Below, piece by piece: positions 6,972-33,690 of a DNA stretch of 64,000 nt. Source of the stretch: an uncultured Latescibacterota bacterium (GTDB lineage: Bacteria; Latescibacterota; UBA2968); assembly GCA_958295785.1 (NCBI GenBank), contig OY282377.1, forward strand, positions 324,394-388,393, written 5' to 3'. Position numbers and translations under genes: made by a program. Under the pieces are notes generated by a model. That model was not told the DNA's origin and made no database searches. It saw only the letters and a list, made by a program, of their open reading frames with translations. Numbering within the stretch: position 1 is the stretch's first letter; every line of letters begins with the position of its first letter.

Positions 6972-8000
6972 CTATTCAAAAAACGTACCTAATTTGATAT
7001 TTTGCTCGGGATTGCTGGCGATTTTTGGATATTCTGTGACGAGGTCTTCAAACGCCACTACGGGCGTTACAATCGGATCGCCCGTCAGTTTTCCCTCTGT
7101 GAGCAATCGCCAGCAGGTGGCGTAGATGCGCTTTTCATCCCATCGGGGGTGTTCCCGGTTCGGCTCGCTACACGCCCGAGAAAAAATGAGATTGGGGCGA
7201 TTGAAATGCGCTTCTGCGCCAAAATCCAACCCGGCCCCATAAGGCGGGGGCGCAGCACCGGCCACCACATTGCCGCCAAACGCCACGCCGCGCACAGCGG
7301 CTTGCAGGGCATGCACATTGCCGCTGTATTCTATCGCCACATCCACCCCTCTGTTTTCCGTTGCTTTTTTGATTTCCACGCCCGCGTCACAGGCCGTGGG
7401 ATCAAGGGTCAGATCCGCGCCGCAGATTTGGGCCGCGCGGCGGCGGTTTGACAGGGGATCGACTGCGATTATCGGATACGCGCCGGAGAGTTTGGCGATC
7501 TGCACCGCCATCAGGCCAATAGCACCCATCCCAAACACGGCGACCGCGTCTCCGATCCGCACCTGTCCATCTCTGACCGCGCCCATGGCAAAATCCGCTG
7601 GATCCAAACACACCGCGGACCGCCACGAAACCCCGTGTGGCATCTTCCAGCACCGATCTGTAGAAACGACATGGACTTCTCGAAATGGGCCGTAACCCAA
7701 CGCGACATCTCCTTCGGCAAAGCCTTTCACGCCCGTGCCCATTGCCGTCACAGTGCCCACAAACATATTCCCCACGCGAGACGCCCGGCCCGTGCCTTTA
7801 CCCGTGTCTGGGAACACCTGAAGTTCTGCATCATATCGCCCCCGTTTCCCGCTATACCCTTTCACCCCCGACATCTCGGTTCCGTGCTTGGCTGCGGCGT
7901 ACAGACTCTGCACCCGCATCTCTCCTTCTCCGACCTCTGCCGCCTCGTATTCCCGCAAGGCCATCTCTTCGGGCGACAGGGCAATCAGTTCCCGTGGCAT
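6972..8000 (-). CDS. Zinc-type alcohol dehydrogenase-like oxidoreductase (MDR superfamily)
   Basis: A 342-residue medium-chain dehydrogenase/reductase. A GroES-like N-terminal half (KHGTEMSGV ... VGNMFVGTVTAMGTGVKGFAEGDVAL) is followed by a Rossmann domain with the NAD(P) motif VFGMGAIGLMAVQIAK and an acid residue after the second strand (IAVDP). The classical catalytic zinc cysteine is not evident (KHGTEMSG replaces the C-G-S/T-D motif), as in sugar-linked or zinc-independent MDR relatives. The start at 8000 is chosen because AGGAGG abuts the earlier ATG at 8009 but is well spaced for this one. The 3' end is the target duplicated around the neighbouring cassette. Substrate is unknown; nearby sugar genes suggest a polyol or sugar derivative. 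Confidence 0.85.
   Translation of the reverse strand: MPRELIALSPEEMALREYEAAEVGEGEMRVQSLYAAAKHGTEMSGVKGYSGKRGRYDAELQVFPDTGKGTGRASRVGNMFVGTVTAMGTGVKGFAEGDVALGYGPFREVHVVSTDRCWKMPHGVSWRSAVCLDPADFAMGAVRDGQVRIGDAVAVFGMGAIGLMAVQIAKLSGAYPIIAVDPLSNRRRAAQICGADLTLDPTACDAGVEIKKATENRGVDVAIEYSGNVHALQAAVRGVAFGGNVVAGAAPPPYGAGLDFGAEAHFNRPNLIFSRACSEPNREHPRWDEKRIYATCWRLLTEGKLTGDPIVTPVVAFEDLVTEYPKIASNPEQNIKLGTFFE
6978..7096. repeat. Direct repeat, copy B: native 3' end of the dehydrogenase gene
   Basis: This is the in-gene copy of the 119-bp direct repeat (116/119 identical to 4818-4936). It contains the last 39 codons or so of the dehydrogenase; the stop codon TAG (6972-6974) lies just outside. The ATPase/PIN cassette begins immediately downstream of it. 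Confidence 0.92.
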
Positions 8001-25719: not shown

Positions 25720-26571
25720 ATGAGAAAAAAAAAGATCGTCGTAACCGGTGCATCCGGCTATGTGGCGGGGCTGATGTTGCCCGCATTGCGCGCAAAGTAC
25801 GATTTGACATTGTTGGATGTCAAAACCACCAACCGCGATGGTGAAGAAGTGGAAGGCGTGCAAATCGCGGATTTGGAAAATTCGGATCGGGATGCGTACC
25901 GCGAATATTTTCGAGGTGCCGACGCTGCGATCCACAGTGGGTTTAAGGGCACTGTTGACTGGCAACACACGGACTATTGGAAAGAGTCCGACAATATTCG
26001 GATGTGCTACAACGTGTACCAAACATGTGTCGAAGAAGGCGTAAAACGCATTGTGGTGATGAGTTCCAATCACGCCTGCGATTTTTACGAGCGGCTGATC
26101 TGGTCTGACCAACTGGACTTTGCAACCACTGACATGCTGCCCCTGTCCGACAATTTTTACGGCTGGGCTAAGTCGTCGTATGAACATCTCGCCTTTGTAT
26201 TCGCAACTGGCAATGCCACCAATGGCAAGCGGCTGGAGAGCGTTCACATTCGCATTGGCGCGCCCCGCGATACCATCATGGAAGGGCAATCAGCGGACGA
26301 CTTGAAACGCATGCACCGCGAACTGGGCGCGTATTTGAGCGCGCGCGACTTGTCCCAACTCGCGATCAAAAGCCTCGAAGCAGAGGATATTGAAGACGAA
26401 AATGGCGTGCCATTTCAGATCTTTTTCGGCATCAGCGGCAACACACACCGGTTCTGGAACCTCGACAATGCAAGGCGCGTGGTGGGCTACACACCCAAAG
26501 ACGACAGCCAGATCCGATTTGCGAATGAGATCTCAGAACTCATTCAAGATGCAAAAAGAATCGACGAATAG
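25720..26571 (+). CDS. NAD-dependent epimerase/dehydratase, uronate-dehydrogenase-like SDR
   Basis: A 283-residue extended SDR. The NAD motif is VVTGASGYVAGLM, the catalytic serine region VVMSSNHACDFYE, and the Y-x-x-x-K pair YGWAK. The SSNH segment and overall length match uronate (hexuronate) dehydrogenases, which oxidise uronic acids to lactones. The following gene is an enolase-superfamily sugar-acid dehydratase, so the two could act in one oxidative sugar-acid route. A GGAG site precedes the ATG. The stop lies in the same GACGAATAG repeat that ends selA, giving the same terminal RIDE residues. Confidence 0.85.
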   Translation: MRKKKIVVTGASGYVAGLMLPALRAKYDLTLLDVKTTNRDGEEVEGVQIADLENSDRDAYREYFRGADAAIHSGFKGTVDWQHTDYWKESDNIRMCYNVYQTCVEEGVKRIVVMSSNHACDFYERLIWSDQLDFATTDMLPLSDNFYGWAKSSYEHLAFVFATGNATNGKRLESVHIRIGAPRDTIMEGQSADDLKRMHRELGAYLSARDLSQLAIKSLEAEDIEDENGVPFQIFFGISGNTHRFWNLDNARRVVGYTPKDDSQIRFANEISELIQDAKRIDE

Positions 26572-26578
26572 ATGAATC

Positions 26579-26608
26579 GTAGGGACAGGCACGGGGGCCT
26601 GTCCCTAC
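26579..26608. repeat. Dispersed palindromic repeat family, copy 4, perfect 12-bp stem
   Basis: GTAGGGACAGGC (26579-26590) and GCCTGTCCCTAC (26597-26608) are perfect inverted repeats. It is the most symmetrical member of the family. A TGACCACTGACTACTGACCA string follows at 26638-26660. Confidence 0.85.
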
Positions 26609-26675
26609 GACTGATGGGACAGGGCGGCGGAGTGGACTGACCACTGACTACTGACCACTGACAAGGATTCCAAAC

Positions 26676-27800
26676 ATGAAAATCACAAAATTTGAGACCA
26701 TTCCGATTCGGGGGCGGGCGATGATTTTGAAGATGTTCACGGATGAAGGCCTGGTGGGATATGGCGAGCCAATGAATTACGAACACGGGCGCGTGGTGGC
26801 GCGGGCAGTGGATGACATGGCCGAATATCTGGTGGGCAAAGACCCGCTGGACATCGAGGATCACTGGCAGGCGATGTACCGCTCGAGTTACAGCCGAAGC
26901 ATGCCGATTTTGATCGGCGCGCTCAGTGGGATAGAAATGGCAATGTGGGATGTGTTTGGCAAACGGGTTGGCATGCCCGTGTGGAAACTTTTGGGCGGGA
27001 AAGTGCGCGACCGCATCCGCGTGTACACCGGCACGGGTGGGACAACGCCAGAAGAATGTGCAGAAAACGCATGTCAAAAAGTCGCAGCGGGCTTTCGCGC
27101 CATCAAGATGGGGGCATCGCCTGGTCCCGTGCGATTTGTAGATACGCCAAAGACCATCGACTTCATGGTGTCCCGCGTTGCCGCCGTGCGCGAAGCCGTG
27201 GGCGATGGCATCGACATCGCGGTGGATTTGCACCGGCGTTTGAGCCCCGCGATGGCCGCCATTCTCGTCAAAGAGTTGGAGCCGCTGCGCCCGCTGTTTG
27301 CCGAAGAGCCGTGTCACCCGGAAAACAACGAGGCGTTGTTGGCCCTGTCCCGAAGCACCACCGTGCCCATTGCCACAGGCGAACGGCACTTGACGCGCTG
27401 GGGGTTCCGCGAACTCATCGAGCGAGAAATGTGCGCGATTTTGCAACCCGATATTCGCCATTGCGGGGGCATGTTGGAATTGAAAAAAATCGCGGGAATG
27501 GCCGAGATCCACAACATGGCGATAGCCCCTCACAACGCCGCCGGCCCCGTGGGGGTGGCGGCGTCTGTCCATGTGATGGCAACGATCCCCAATCTGTTGA
27601 TTTGCGAGGGCGGGCACAATCGCGGGGAAGGCTTGTTCAACACGCCCATGGTTTTTCGAGATGGCTTTATCGAACTGCCGACCGAACCGGGCTTGGGCGT
27701 GGATATGGACGATGAAGCACTCGAGACACTGCGCGATGAATCGCATCGCCTGCGCGGGATGTTCTGGCATGAAGATGACGGATCTTTTGCGGATTACTAA
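26676..27800 (+). CDS. Enolase-superfamily dehydratase (mandelate racemase group, galactonate-dehydratase-like)
   Basis: A 374-residue enzyme with a capping domain and a C-terminal barrel. Metal ligands are visible as Asp in IAVDLHRRL, Glu in LFAEEPCHPEN and Glu in PIATGERHLTRWGF; ILQPDIRHCGGMLELKKIAG and IAPHNAAGPVG complete the active site. The histidine in DLHRRL and the QPDxxHCGG motif resemble D-galactonate/mannonate-type sugar-acid dehydratases. The start at 26676 has the usual N-terminus MKITKFETIPI. It follows the uronate-dehydrogenase-like gene. The exact sugar acid is not determined. Confidence 0.9.
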   Translation: MKITKFETIPIRGRAMILKMFTDEGLVGYGEPMNYEHGRVVARAVDDMAEYLVGKDPLDIEDHWQAMYRSSYSRSMPILIGALSGIEMAMWDVFGKRVGMPVWKLLGGKVRDRIRVYTGTGGTTPEECAENACQKVAAGFRAIKMGASPGPVRFVDTPKTIDFMVSRVAAVREAVGDGIDIAVDLHRRLSPAMAAILVKELEPLRPLFAEEPCHPENNEALLALSRSTTVPIATGERHLTRWGFRELIEREMCAILQPDIRHCGGMLELKKIAGMAEIHNMAIAPHNAAGPVGVAASVHVMATIPNLLICEGGHNRGEGLFNTPMVFRDGFIELPTEPGLGVDMDDEALETLRDESHRLRGMFWHEDDGSFADY

Positions 27801-28980
27801 CGTGTTCATTCCCGTTCTTATGTGGTTGCTTTTGCTCTGTGCGAGCGGTGATGCAGATGCCACAGACCTGACCCTGCGCCGGGAATACAACGATGTGTCC
27901 GCCGCCATAGACAGCTTGGTGAGAGTGATGCGGGTGTCCGATGCCGATGTGCTGGACAAATTGCCGGAAGGTCGTCCCGACCGCGTCGTGCCCGAGGGCC
28001 TGACGGCGGTGATGATCTTTTGGGCAGACGACGAAGCGCGCGTTTGGCTCAACGATTTTCCCGTGGGCAAAACCCGCTTGACGCCCGTGGAAGTGAGCAT
28101 TCCCGATCTGTATTTTCGCGGGCAAAATCACCTGCGCGTGCGGTGTTGGGATACAGATGGGGTCGAGAGTTGTTTTTTGGGCGGGTTATATCTAAAAGAT
28201 GGCGCGGGCAGGTTATATCCCGTTGTGGTCTCCAGCGGAGAATGGGAGGCAGATGGCGGACAGGCATCAGAAATTGTCTATGCCCATCCCCTGCCAGACA
28301 TTCCCTCTGCCGAGCCGATTTGGGGCGCGCACACGTTTGGGATTGTGAACCTGAGCGTCACCTTTGATCGCGAGGCGATTGACCGCGCATTGGGGCAACC
28401 TGTGGGCGCGGTGTCTGCGCGGCAACAGGCGATGGACTATCACAAATTCGCCCAACAAATCGCCGCGTTGCAGGCCCGGCGGGAAAACATCGAGGCGACC
28501 ATGGCGCAACAAAGCGACCTCAACATACCGCTTTACTATCGAGAACGCGCCCTTTCCGCATCCCTGTCATTGGGAAAGACCGCCCCTTTGACAGAAGAGG
28601 TGTCGGCACCTGTGGCACAAAAAACGCGCTCATGGTCAGAGAAACTGCCGGCGGTGCAGCGGCAATTGATCTATCCAACCCCCCGCGCACTCAAGGGCGA
28701 ACAGGCGGCAAATACAGCGGATGGTGAGACAATTTTGGACAAGCGCGGCAGCCGAGAGCAAGCCTATCGCCCGCCCGAAGAGCGCGGTGGCAAGGCGCAA
28801 GGCAAACGCGGTGAAAAGGACAAGGGGACTGAGGGGCCACCGCATCCGCAGGGAACGGGCCGCGATGGCGCGAGCGGGCGGGCCACGCGATTGGGGCTGG
28901 TGTTGCCGACATTGGTGTTGGGATTCTACGTGCTATACGCGATCACGCGATGGCAGTCGATAACAGGAGAACGCAATTGA
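27775..28980 (+). CDS. Unknown secreted, C-terminally membrane-anchored protein, first gene of an ExbB/ExbD-like operon
   Basis: A protein of about 401 residues with an N-terminal signal sequence (VFIPVLMWLLLLCASGDADA), an extracytoplasmic domain with a beta-rich part (AVMIFWADDEARVWLNDFPV, VRCWDTDGVESCFLGGLYL), a Q/R/E-rich probable coiled coil near 230-255, a proline/glycine/charge-rich linker and one C-terminal membrane segment (LGLVLPTLVLGFYVLYAI). It overlaps the stop of the preceding dehydratase gene by 26 bp and its own stop overlaps the next start (TGATG). No family was recognised. The context suggests it is the periplasmic partner of the proton-channel-like proteins that follow. Confidence 0.7.
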   Translation: MTDLLRITNVFIPVLMWLLLLCASGDADATDLTLRREYNDVSAAIDSLVRVMRVSDADVLDKLPEGRPDRVVPEGLTAVMIFWADDEARVWLNDFPVGKTRLTPVEVSIPDLYFRGQNHLRVRCWDTDGVESCFLGGLYLKDGAGRLYPVVVSSGEWEADGGQASEIVYAHPLPDIPSAEPIWGAHTFGIVNLSVTFDREAIDRALGQPVGAVSARQQAMDYHKFAQQIAALQARRENIEATMAQQSDLNIPLYYRERALSASLSLGKTAPLTEEVSAPVAQKTRSWSEKLPAVQRQLIYPTPRALKGEQAANTADGETILDKRGSREQAYRPPEERGGKAQGKRGEKDKGTEGPPHPQGTGRDGASGRATRLGLVLPTLVLGFYVLYAITRWQSITGERN

Positions 28981-29741
28981 TGGGCGGATTGCACTGGGCC
29001 GAGATGTTGTCTTTGGTTCTTTTTTGGGCCGTGTGCGCGGTGGCCGGCGCGCTGATTTTGATGCAGCACGCAGCAACTGTTTGCCGATACGAAAAACAGT
29101 TTGGGTTGACCGCGTTCACTTGGATTGGGCCTGTCATCGGCGGGGTGGCCGGCGCGGGCATGGCGGGCATTGGCATTTATTTTTACTTTTTTGCACCGCC
29201 AGCAGGGGGCTGGGTCGAGTGGGTCGGGCGGTCGTCTTACGCGCTCATTTTGGGCAGTTCGGCAGCGCATCTGGTCACGCTGATTCATTTTTGGCGTCGC
29301 CTCAATGCGGAAAACAATGCACAGCCCGATACATTGACCGCGCGGCGAAAGCAGCAGGCCGAGAGACTGCGCCACAGCCGCGAGAATTACGCCGATCTCA
29401 AAGCGCGAGACGACGACGCCATAGACGACTTGCTCGCGGTGTTCGGCGACCGGTTGTTGACCGCGCAACGCGCCTTGAACCGCATTCCGTTTTACGGGTA
29501 TTTGGGCACTGTGTGCGGCATTTTGCTGATGGCCGAAGAACTGACCCTGTTGGATGAAGCCACCGAGACGTTCAAAGTGTTGCGCGATATGGCAGGTGGG
29601 TTGGTGCTCGCATTTCAAACAACGCTCGTCGCGCTGTTGGCCTATCTGCCGCTTCGCAAGGGGTATGATGTATTGCTGAGTCGCATGTCCGATTTGGAGC
29701 GCGAATGGCTGGGCATGCGCGACGTGGAGAACGGGCCATGA
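28980..29741 (+). CDS. MotA/TolQ/ExbB-family proton-channel-like protein
   Basis: A 253-residue membrane protein with three or more membrane segments. The C-terminal region RIPFYGYLGTVCGILLMAEE and MAGGLVLAFQTTLVALLAYL is the conserved MotA/TolQ/ExbB core (G-x-x-GTV-x-G ... GL-x-x-A-x-x-T-T). A cytoplasmic charged helix (about 120-165) connects the first pair of segments to this core. It starts on the preceding stop codon and ends in an ATGA overlap with the next gene. Such proteins form pentameric channels that use proton or sodium flow to drive a partner; no tonB, tolA or flagellar gene is nearby. Confidence 0.82.
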   Translation: MGGLHWAEMLSLVLFWAVCAVAGALILMQHAATVCRYEKQFGLTAFTWIGPVIGGVAGAGMAGIGIYFYFFAPPAGGWVEWVGRSSYALILGSSAAHLVTLIHFWRRLNAENNAQPDTLTARRKQQAERLRHSRENYADLKARDDDAIDDLLAVFGDRLLTAQRALNRIPFYGYLGTVCGILLMAEELTLLDEATETFKVLRDMAGGLVLAFQTTLVALLAYLPLRKGYDVLLSRMSDLEREWLGMRDVENGP

Positions 29742-30160
29742 GGCGGCGGTTTTTACAACGTGCGGTATCAGATGCCGAAGCGCACGACGTGAGCAAAGAG
29801 TTGTTTTTGGGGATTATGATGTTGATGCTCTGCTTGGGCATTATGATTTTGAACGTGTCGCAACCCGTGTGGCGCGTCCACCATCACGACCCCAAGCCCG
29901 GCGATGTGGTGATTTTATACACCGCTCAAGGGCTGGTGTTTTCAGAAGACGGGCGGTCTGTCAAACGCGGGTTGGGGCCGGGCGAGTTTCGCAAAACAGT
30001 GGGGGCCATGGTCGCAAAACCCGATCAGAATTTGCACCTGTTTCTAAAAGGGGGCAGCCGCGAGCAGATGGTCAATGATGCGGCGTATGCGGACTCACTC
30101 CTGTCCGCTGGCACCGCGGGCCAAAAAGTGCGCCCCGCCGTGTTCGTCCATTTGTGGTAA
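29738..30160 (+). CDS. Small single-pass protein, ExbD/TolR-like position
   Basis: A 140-residue protein with a basic N-terminus (MRRRFLQRAVSDAEAHDV), one membrane segment (LFLGIMMLMLCLGIMILNV) and an extracytoplasmic domain (QPVWRVHHHDPKPGDVVILY ... VHLW). The topology and position after an ExbB-like gene match ExbD/TolR. However, the conserved membrane aspartate of ExbD/TolR/MotB is not seen within the hydrophobic stretch; the nearest acidic residues lie just before it (AEAHDVSKE). It may be a divergent stator subunit or an unrelated anchor. Coupled to the upstream gene by ATGA. Confidence 0.6.
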   Translation: MRRRFLQRAVSDAEAHDVSKELFLGIMMLMLCLGIMILNVSQPVWRVHHHDPKPGDVVILYTAQGLVFSEDGRSVKRGLGPGEFRKTVGAMVAKPDQNLHLFLKGGSREQMVNDAAYADSLLSAGTAGQKVRPAVFVHLW

Positions 30161-30522: not shown

Positions 30523-33500
30523 ATGATCGACACGAAAAAAAGAACATCGCTGTTGCCCAGAATTTCGGTGACGAGGCCCGTCACGGTGACGATGTGTTTG
30601 GTCGGGTTGATGGTGATTGGGCTGGTGGCGTATTGGCGCATTCCCATTCAGGCGTGGGCGTCGGGCAATGACTGGAATCGGTTTTGGGTGGATGTGGCGC
30701 AGGAAAATGCGTCTGTTCAAGAGCGGTTTCACACCATCGCCCTGCCGATGGAGCAGCACATGCGAACCGTGAGAGAACTCAGCGATATTTACGCCTTTGC
30801 CGGGGAACCTTGGGCAGGAGTCGAGTTGCGCTTTCACCGCGGCACAGACATGCGCGATGCGTACGTGCGCGTGGCAGACCGATTGGAGCGCGCCAAGCTC
30901 GATTTGCCCGAAGAAGTGCGCGATAAAATCAAGGTGTATTCGTGGAATCAAGAAACCGATTCCGAGGTGATCTGGACCGGGCTGTCCATTCCGGAGGACA
31001 TCGCCGACAAGGAGCAATGGGTTCAAACCCATGTGCTCGATCCCATTGAACGGGTCGATGGCGTGGCGAAGACCAGCATCTGGGGGTTTGAAGACAAGGA
31101 AGTTCTGATTTTGGTGGATCAAGAGCGGATGCGGACGCACGGCATTGAAACCCATGAACTCGTGGCGTCGTTGCAACAGGACAATTTTTCCCTGTCTGGC
31201 GGTCGCGTTTCCGAGGGGGGAAAGCGGTTTTTCGTGCGGTCGCTGGCGCATTATCAAAGCCTTGCGGAAATCGAGAATATCGCGGTGCAAAGCCGGCACA
31301 GCAGCAAGAGGGTGCGCCTCGAGGATGTGGCCGATGTGGTATATGCTGCGCCGCCGCGCGACCGGGTGTGGCGCGTGGATGGGCAACACAACCTGGGCTT
31401 GGATGTGTACAAGGAATCGGGCGAAAATATCGTGGATTTGTGCCAACGCATTGTCGCCAAAATGGCGGAGATCGAGGCCCATACCCCTGTGGTGTTCCGC
31501 TTGTTTTACAGCGAGGGCAAGCTCATCGCCGATTCGATGGACAATTTGAAAATCACGGGGCTGTGGGGCGGGTTGTTCGCCGCGCTGGTGTTGTTGTTTT
31601 TCCTGCGCGCCGTGCGAATGACCGCGCTGATCGCGCTGTCCATTCCCCTGTGTGTGATGATCACGATCACCGTGCTCTATTTTATGGGTTGGTCGCTCAA
31701 TTTGTTGACGATGATGGGCTTGATGGTGGGCGTGGGCATGGTGGTCGATAACGCGATTGTGATTGTGGAGAATATTTACCGCCTGCGATCCGAGGGCGAG
31801 GACGCACGAAGCGCGTCCATTCACGGCGCGAGCGAGGTGGGCTTGGCAATTGCGATGGCGACGTTGACGACAGTGGTGGTGTTTTTGCCGATGATGTTGA
31901 TGAATGACAGCTTTGACATGAAGTTTTTGCTGTCGAAAATCGGGATGCCCGTGGTGTTCGCGCTCGTGGCGTCTCTGTTTGTCGCGCTGTTGTTCATTCC
32001 CTTGGCCGCACAGCGGTTTAGCGACTCGGTGGTGAAGTCCGATCCCAAGTCCATTGCGTTTGTGCGTGGCTTTTATCGGCGCGGGCTTCACTGGGTGATT
32101 CACCATCGCCGAGATGCGTTTTTGATCGCGCTCCTGTTGTTTGCCACCATCGCTTTTCCGCTGGAGAACACGAAGAAAACGGATCAGATGCGTTTTTCCT
32201 CGAATCGCGTGACCATTCGCATGTATGGCCCCAACAATTTTTCGCTGGAAGAGATGGATAAAATTGCGACCGATCTCGAAACTTATGTCAATGAACGGCG
32301 CGGCCGGTACAAAATCAAAAATGTCATGACGTATTTCCGGCGCGGGTACATCAATTTGCGGATGAATCTCGAAGAAGACCCGCATCAGGCGTGGTGGTAC
32401 GCGGTGTATCGCTGGGGGCGCAATGGCATGGGCTTTCCCCTTGACCGGTGGATGACGCGGCAAGAGATCATCGACGAACTGAATCGGGACGTGCCGCGCT
32501 ATGTCGGGTTTCGGGTGTCGGTGGAATCTCGAAGCTCGGGCGGGCGAGACCCTTATGTGAGCGTGTACTTGTACGGGCCTGACTTTGAAAAATTGGAAGA
32601 TATGCTCGGCGAGGTGGAACGGCGGTTGAAGCAAATCCCAACGGTGACGAGTTTGCAAAGCGATTTGGAATTTGGCAAAGACGAGATTCGCATTCGCGTC
32701 AACCGGATACAGGCCAAAAAGCACGGGATTCCAGCCGAGCGGATCAGCCGCACTCTGGCCTATCAACTGCGCGGCGCGACCTTGCCGCGGTTTCAAGCAG
32801 ACGATCACGAAGTGAATGTGCAACTGATTTTGGACGAATCCGACCGGCAATCGCTGGTGCAGTTGAAGAATTTTATGTTTGTAACAGACGCGGGCGAAAA
32901 ATTGCCCTTGTCGAGTTTTGCGACCTTTGAGATCACCAAGGGGCCGAGCCGTATTTTTAGGCACAATGGGCGCAACCGGTTGCGCGTGCGCGTCTATACC
33001 ACCAAGGCCGATATCGAGGGGATGTATCAGGAGATCGACAAAGTGATGGAGGGGTTCACCCTGCCGAGGGGCTACGAGTGGAACAAGGGCGAGCGGTATT
33101 CGCAATACAGCCGGGAAAGTCAGGCGATGACCTTTGCCATTGTGATGGCGATAGCGTTTGTGTTTTTGCTGATGGGCGTGTTGTTCGAGTCGGTCATTTT
33201 GCCCTTTGCCGTGGTTTTCGCCATTCCATTTTCGTTTTTGGGCGTGTACTGGGGGTTGTGGCTCACGAATACGACGATGGATTTTATGTCGAATGTGGGG
33301 GCGATAGTGCTGATTGGGGTGGTGGTCAACAACGCGATTGTATTGGTCGATATGATCAACCGCTCGCGTCTATCGGGTATGGACCGCACAGAGGCGATTA
33401 TGGCGGCGGGTCACAATCGCTTTCGGCCCATTTTAATGACGACCTGCACGACCGTGTTTGGGTTGTTGCCCATGGCCATTGGCAGCAGCACGATGATGGG

Positions 33501-33690
33501 CATGCCCTACGCGCCCTTGGGCATTACCATGATGGGTGGGCTGATTGTGTCAACGGCACTGACGCTGTTTGTCATTCCGCTGTTTTACGTTTTGTTGGAC
33601 GATTTGCGCGAGGCATTGAAACAGATCGCCGCGGGGAGTTTCCGAAGCTCTGACCAGTGGGAAGATGACCCTGTGCAAGCGGCGGGTTGA
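30523..33690 (+). CDS. RND-superfamily efflux transporter (AcrB/CzcA/MdtB-like)
   Basis: A 1055-residue HAE/HME-type RND pump. It shows the 12-segment layout with two large periplasmic loops, the transmembrane 4 motif GVGMVVDNAIVIVENIYRL containing the proton-relay Asp, and the repeated half VVNNAIVLVDMINRSRLSGM ... TCTTVFGLLPMAIG. The N-terminus SVTRPVTVTMCLVGLMVIG-like segment (PRISVTRPVTVTMC) is typical. No membrane-fusion (HlyD/AcrA) or TolC-type gene is adjacent, so the pump is either completed by distant genes or works in an unusual way. Substrate is unknown. Confidence 0.93.
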   Translation: MIDTKKRTSLLPRISVTRPVTVTMCLVGLMVIGLVAYWRIPIQAWASGNDWNRFWVDVAQENASVQERFHTIALPMEQHMRTVRELSDIYAFAGEPWAGVELRFHRGTDMRDAYVRVADRLERAKLDLPEEVRDKIKVYSWNQETDSEVIWTGLSIPEDIADKEQWVQTHVLDPIERVDGVAKTSIWGFEDKEVLILVDQERMRTHGIETHELVASLQQDNFSLSGGRVSEGGKRFFVRSLAHYQSLAEIENIAVQSRHSSKRVRLEDVADVVYAAPPRDRVWRVDGQHNLGLDVYKESGENIVDLCQRIVAKMAEIEAHTPVVFRLFYSEGKLIADSMDNLKITGLWGGLFAALVLLFFLRAVRMTALIALSIPLCVMITITVLYFMGWSLNLLTMMGLMVGVGMVVDNAIVIVENIYRLRSEGEDARSASIHGASEVGLAIAMATLTTVVVFLPMMLMNDSFDMKFLLSKIGMPVVFALVASLFVALLFIPLAAQRFSDSVVKSDPKSIAFVRGFYRRGLHWVIHHRRDAFLIALLLFATIAFPLENTKKTDQMRFSSNRVTIRMYGPNNFSLEEMDKIATDLETYVNERRGRYKIKNVMTYFRRGYINLRMNLEEDPHQAWWYAVYRWGRNGMGFPLDRWMTRQEIIDELNRDVPRYVGFRVSVESRSSGGRDPYVSVYLYGPDFEKLEDMLGEVERRLKQIPTVTSLQSDLEFGKDEIRIRVNRIQAKKHGIPAERISRTLAYQLRGATLPRFQADDHEVNVQLILDESDRQSLVQLKNFMFVTDAGEKLPLSSFATFEITKGPSRIFRHNGRNRLRVRVYTTKADIEGMYQEIDKVMEGFTLPRGYEWNKGERYSQYSRESQAMTFAIVMAIAFVFLLMGVLFESVILPFAVVFAIPFSFLGVYWGLWLTNTTMDFMSNVGAIVLIGVVVNNAIVLVDMINRSRLSGMDRTEAIMAAGHNRFRPILMTTCTTVFGLLPMAIGSSTMMGMPYAPLGITMMGGLIVSTALTLFVIPLFYVLLDDLREALKQIAAGSFRSSDQWEDDPVQAAG

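Follow-up and report, generated by a model that had tools for sequence, protein, structure and literature searches.

The window studied here is a 64,000-nucleotide stretch of DNA from an uncultured Latescibacterota bacterium (GenBank assembly GCA_958295785.1, contig OY282377.1), covering positions 324394-388393 of a one-contig genome of 5.66 Mb whose named relatives are Latescibacterota (some deposited as Gemmatimonadota). It contains three plus-strand genes, here called A, B, and C, that form an overlapping operon (Table 1). The stop codon of A (TGA, 28978-28980) and the ATG of B (from 28980) share one base, giving TGATG, and the ATG of C (from 29738) runs into the stop codon of B (TGA, 29739-29741), giving ATGA, so the overlapping three-gene operon described in the first-pass annotation of this stretch is upheld. 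The start of A lies 26 bases within the 3' end of a galactonate dehydratase gene (26676-27800). Rfam gave no match and no promoter-like excess was found.

Homologues of B were found in 37 of 64 Latescibacterota genomes (one match partial), all in the class of the window's genome, and none were found in the other Latescibacterota classes sampled; relatives of A-B-C were likewise not found in plasmids or viral contigs. So far the operon is known only from one Latescibacterota class, in a scan of genome contigs that was made with one protein query and whose reach does not extend to distant relatives in other phyla. C adjoins B in 59 of 59 loci; several of these represent the same genome twice, and two of them (L024 and L047) coincide and show the membrane motif of C ahead of a masked stretch of N. 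The ratio of nonsynonymous to synonymous substitution rates is 0.22-0.25 for A, 0.18 for B, and 0.09-0.12 for C, indicating purifying selection. Because the operon recurs in these genomes, with C always beside B and carrying the same membrane motif, and because all three ratios are low, A-B-C is not a chance arrangement of open frames. In genus g14 the A-B-C block is gone and the flanking genes are retained: at locus L128, c39, which encodes a tetratricopeptide repeat (TPR) protein, stops at 7881 and the coiled-coil gene c5 starts at 7957 with no A-B-C between them, and tblastn of five g14 loci found no trace of the operon. A-B-C thus behaves as a unit.

The B protein matches the MotA_ExbB family (PF01618) at 27.5 bits (curated Pfam cut-off 22.9; E 2.9e-6), and its profile aligns to TolQ (8odt, E 0.017) with the GTV and TT motifs of B on TolQ Thr145 and Thr178. 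In TolQR, protons are proposed to travel along these two threonines and TolR Asp23 (PMC12583513; PMC12215075). Hydropathy suggests five membrane helices for B, the three of TolQ plus an N-terminal hairpin. Among its charged residues, Arg84 is invariant and Glu187 nearly invariant in the alignment of B homologues.

C has no match in Pfam, even at E 10, and none in NCBIfam or PADLOC. Its AlphaFold model (predicted local distance difference test, pLDDT, 82) has a helix over residues 2-41 followed by strands (b) and helices (a) in the order bbb-a-b-a-b. In a Foldseek search of the model against PDB (350,542 chains), TolR (5by4) ranked first with a probability of 0.95, and ExbD entries took ranks 2 and 3 (8vgd and 8vgc, both ExbD-peptide complexes) and rank 5 (8p9r, an ExbD-TonB complex). 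Since several independent PDB entries agree, the modelled periplasmic domain likely has the ExbD/TolR fold. This fold and the Pfam match of B agree with the earlier naming of the genes as an ExbB/ExbD-like membrane operon.

Models of the motors built with ExbD, TolR, and MotB all centre, as far as is known, on the membrane aspartate of these proteins. No aspartate lies in the hydrophobic helix of any C sequence read. The first-pass annotation had already remarked on the lack of an obvious membrane aspartate and had proposed mapping the acidic residues near this segment; the mapping brought out what it had overlooked, an invariant glutamate (Glu21) at the start of the helix. The stretch HD[VI]SKE[LI]FLGIMMLM, which includes the invariant Asp17 and Lys20, is invariant in 19 aligned C proteins and wherever readable in the 59 loci, as expected for a helix packed within a ring. 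In one ungapped register, Glu21 falls on the aspartate of the ZorB protein of the same genome (score 16); in another, Gly25 falls on the ExbD aspartate (mean 6.5) and Glu21 lies four residues earlier. Either way, Glu21 coincides with the aspartate or precedes it by one turn of the helix, and it points to the same face. From its conservation and position in the sequence, Glu21 may take over the role of the aspartate. Glutamate has the chemistry for this role: MotB mutants D24E, D32E, and D33E have reduced motility but retain it (PMC6663468), and the GldLM motor relies on a glutamate, located in GldL (PMC8986121). The annotation had supposed that the energy-coupling mechanism may differ; because the glutamate is invariant at or one turn before the aspartate position and B keeps both threonines, an altered site of the same mechanism is judged likelier than a different mechanism.

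A has no family match in Pfam, NCBIfam, or PADLOC. It had been described as a secreted, C-terminally anchored protein with a coiled coil and a charged linker, and this is right: the N-terminus is signal-like, and a long helix, a disordered linker, and a C-terminal membrane segment follow (AlphaFold model, overall pLDDT 75). That description missed a predicted beta-sandwich, in which the motifs WADDEA and WDTD are invariant in an alignment of 22 homologues. TonB and TolA have an N-terminal anchor and a C-terminal TonB/TolA domain, whereas the anchor of A is C-terminal and no Pfam domain was matched. A is probably a periplasm-reaching protein of a new type.

Table 1. Genes and features of the A-B-C operon (window coordinates)
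Feature	Coordinates	Strand	Description and basis
Gene A	27775..28980	+	401 aa; exported, C-terminal membrane helix; 22-sequence alignment of homologues
A signal-peptide-like segment, residues 1-29	27775..27861	+	Hydropathy peak 4-22; cleavage by eye at about ADA/TD; membrane-like N-termini in homologues
A beta-sandwich (predicted), residues 77-198	28003..28368	+	AlphaFold, pLDDT ~83-96 over 77-198
A long helix / coiled coil, residues 221-246	28435..28512	+	AlphaFold model
A linker, charged, Gly-rich, disordered, residues 310-371	28702..28887	+	pLDDT <50; length differs among homologues
A C-terminal membrane helix, residues 373-397	28891..28965	+	AlphaFold; hydropathy segment 373-391
Gene B	28980..29741	+	253 aa; MotA/TolQ/ExbB-family; ~5 predicted membrane helices
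B Thr177 in YLGTVCGIL, TolQ Thr145 equivalent	29508..29510	+	Invariant column; profile alignment to TolQ
B Thr215 in LAFxTTL, TolQ Thr178 equivalent	29622..29624	+	Invariant column; profile alignment to TolQ
Gene C	29738..30160	+	140 aa; single-pass; ExbD/TolR-like periplasmic fold (predicted)
C membrane helix HD[VI]SKE[LI]FLGIMMLMxLGI[ML]ILN, residues 16-41	29783..29860	+	Near-invariant in homologues
C Glu21, candidate ion-binding residue	29798..29800	+	Invariant; alignment of C homologues; register comparison
C Gly25, at the essential Asp position in the ExbD/TolR register	29810..29812	+	Alignment; register comparison
C periplasmic domain (predicted), residues 57-138, bbb-a-b-a-b	29906..30151	+	AlphaFold, Foldseek

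By its gene neighbourhood, A-B-C differs from the usual loci of the Ton, Tol, Gld, or flagellar kind. No match to the tonB, ExbD, or OmpA/Pal families was found within the window, and the surroundings of the operon at about 21 diverse homologue loci contain no tonB, tolA, tolB, or pal and no flagellar or gliding genes. The annotation had seen no tonB, tolA, tolB, pal, or flagellar gene nearby and had reasoned that homologues tied to tonB/tolA or gliding genes would make this an ordinary divergent system; both the observation and the unusual character of the operon survive the wider comparison. Canonical ExbB-ExbD loci are located elsewhere in the genome, and two of its five TonB_C matches lie beside them; A-B-C is therefore an extra system.

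We consider it reasonably probable that A-B-C is a divergent ion-driven energiser of the 5:2 type, belonging to the ExbBD/TolQR superfamily and equipped with its own periplasmic partner. In the arrangement we infer, B would form the membrane ring and a dimer of C the central axle, with its ExbD/TolR-like domain in the periplasm. Moving past the ring of B threonines, ions would bind to Glu21 of C in place of the aspartate, and as B moved around C this motion would be relayed to A. A would be a dedicated, exported transducer, held next to the channel by its C-terminal helix; its flexible charged linker would carry the helical part and the beta-sandwich toward peptidoglycan or another envelope target.

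Several results weigh against this proposal. The fold match of A is weak, a faint likeness to the sugar-binding jelly roll of GH2 enzymes by hidden Markov model (HMM) comparison (7sf2, E 0.077) and by Foldseek. The Foldseek E-values of C are modest (0.05-0.2), and attempts to relate C to ExbD by sequence failed in Pfam, in a PDB HMM search (no link), and in hhalign with the ExbD of relatives (probability 0.4%), so that fold comparison alone gave the link. TolQ Glu173, at the channel entrance (PMC12583513), aligns to Leu210 of B, a channel feature that is thus not kept. Hydrophobic helices align in several registers, and for this reason Glu21 as the ion-binding site is a guess backed by conservation.

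The chief rival, which we regard as unlikely, is a non-conducting relative in which B and C assemble in the manner of ExbB and ExbD, the aspartate is lost, and the complex does not work as a motor but serves A passively, as a scaffold, sensor, or anchor. The C helix without aspartate is consistent with it, as the ExbD proteins aligned from the same genomes all retain theirs, and so is the missing Glu173 equivalent of B; a dead channel, however, would be expected to relax at the channel residues, and both B threonines are invariant, as are Glu21 and Lys20 in a C protein whose periplasmic domain varies. It is rather improbable that A-B-C is a motor using a charged site other than Glu21, either Asp17 or Lys20 of C or Arg84 or Glu186/187 of B. 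The invariance of Asp17, Lys20, and Arg84 and near-invariance of Glu187 would suit such a motor, and GldL Glu49 is a precedent for a site moved to GldL (PMC8986121), but in the ExbD register Asp17 is paired with a residue on the cytoplasmic side, and Arg84 and Glu187 are predicted at periplasmic helix ends. An anti-phage role of the Zorya kind, at which the annotation had hinted and to which the membership of B in the same broad family as ZorA lends some colour, is largely refuted and highly improbable: PADLOC found no defence match for A, B, or C, the operon does not combine ZorA/ZorB with ZorC/D or ZorE, and its chromosomal context is conserved across families, with metabolic neighbours, no nuclease, and no plasmid or viral match. 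A complete Zorya II system (ZorA2, ZorB2, and ZorE2, an HNH nuclease) is located elsewhere in the same genome (L081:7584-10672; G000:C1:4679583-4682671).

A further proposal concerns the target and is compatible with the ion-driven mechanism: A-B-C might be the motor of SprA-dependent (type IX-like) secretion in this class, or its substitute for Tol-Pal. SprA is present in 4 of 4 A-B-C genomes tested (a true equivalog in two). TolB_N is absent from all four genomes searched, the window's genome among them, and the single OmpA-domain protein of the window's genome is ZorB, with no other OmpA/Pal match. The OmpA domain of ZorB went unlisted in the first-look filter, which can therefore miss weak matches. 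We think this proposal has a slim chance, as SprA and Pal are distant from A-B-C, some relatives lack A-B-C, and many A-B-C genomes contain OmpA proteins; complementarity of A-B-C with OmpA/Pal counts is not claimed, since the pattern follows genera. In the part of one A-B-C-negative genome that was sampled (1.6 Mb), SprA was not seen. The fuller claim, that A-B-C energises a major envelope process of the class (SprA-dependent secretion outside Bacteroidota, or a Tol-Pal replacement) by means of a glutamate-based axle where ExbD, TolR, MotB, and ZorB use aspartate, is improbable as well. Type IX secretion has been termed confined to Bacteroidetes in the literature. No gld/por genes were found at 21 A-B-C loci; no search aimed at GldL/GldM was made.

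Among known systems, A-B-C resembles TolQ-TolR(-TolA) in the core of B, the predicted periplasmic fold of C, the channel threonine pair, and a third membrane-tethered periplasmic protein in the operon, but differs in having Gly/Glu in C for Asp23, an extra helix hairpin in B, and a C-terminal anchor and beta-sandwich in A. Tol-Pal calls for linked or present TolB and Pal; TolB was absent from four genomes, and Pal from the window's genome and from the locus. With ExbB-ExbD(-TonB) it shares an operon of ring and axle genes, the ExbD-like fold of C, and the energiser logic, but the essential Asp25 is replaced in C and there is no TonB_C in A or nearby. GldL-GldM is likewise a motor of the 5:2 kind (which for A-B-C would follow from our proposal) whose acidic site departs from the MotB/ExbD aspartate; unlike C, an axle of 140 residues, GldM has four long periplasmic domains, the acidic residue is on the ring rather than, putatively, on the axle, and no gld genes are near A-B-C. 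ZorA-ZorB is similar in the broad family of B and in the best register, which puts Glu21 on the ZorB aspartate, but A-B-C lacks the long tail of ZorA, an OmpA domain in C, a partner nuclease or helicase, and a defence context. Measured against the ExbD/TolR family (PF02472), C agrees in its helix and periplasmic fold (at suggestive scores) and departs in its sequence model and membrane aspartate. For these two departures we keep A-B-C apart from Ton, Tol, Gld, and Zorya, though it would work like ExbBD/TolQR. A natural, deeply conserved family that has no such aspartate, yet retains the threonines of the channel and has an invariant glutamate on that face of the helix, offers a ready test of what an ion-binding site needs. 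It would also give a phylum of little-known envelope biology an energiser whose periplasmic partner has no earlier description; one genome of this phylum, fully searched with Tol-Pal models, has neither TolB nor Pal.

The genes upstream of the operon differ between lineages. In the window's order they are sugar-acid enzymes, linked to A-B-C in that order only; in the window (25720-27800) a uronate-dehydrogenase-like gene and the galactonate dehydratase gene lie directly 5' of A, a pair kept in much of the order. Family f4 has upstream genes for an amidohydrolase, a Na/Ca exchanger, and a short-chain dehydrogenase, and at some loci a TPR gene immediately precedes A. Downstream, nearly every locus from outside the window's genus has two uncharacterised coiled-coil genes convergent with A-B-C: c5 (a lipoprotein in f4) and c6 (with N-terminal membrane helices; L058:10456-12130 and equivalents). 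Because they stay in g14 after the loss of A-B-C and are sited elsewhere in the window's genus, c5 and c6 were rejected as obligate partners. In the window's genus, c5 neighbours a gene for an outer-membrane efflux lipoprotein, whereas RND pump genes adjoin c6; in g14 a thiol-redox operon (VKOR-domain, OmpA-like, then thioredoxin-like) lies beside c5/c6 (L128:9717-11600, L130:10242-12652, L131:8257-10774). An AcrB-type RND pump gene is directly 3' of C in the window (30523-33690); in the same-genus relatives read, other genes take this place.

The SprA outer-membrane translocon of the window's genome (TIGR04189, 624 bits) is encoded at L135:10015-16305 (G000:C1:3293014-3299304), with others at L137, L138, and L140, and LptF/LptG-like genes precede SprA in three genomes. 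Another locus of the window's genome (L080:6641-12958; G000:C1:1892640-1898957) encodes a MotA_ExbB protein of 416 residues with an apparent periplasmic insertion, a divergent ExbD-like protein with the aspartate (below the Pfam cut-off), and a PEGA-domain protein nearby. It is like A-B-C in its ring protein, small axle, and further exported partner, but it retains the canonical aspartate and its partner proteins are unrelated. A single open frame of 927 residues at G008:C1:2815191-2817216 contains several TonB_C matches in series.

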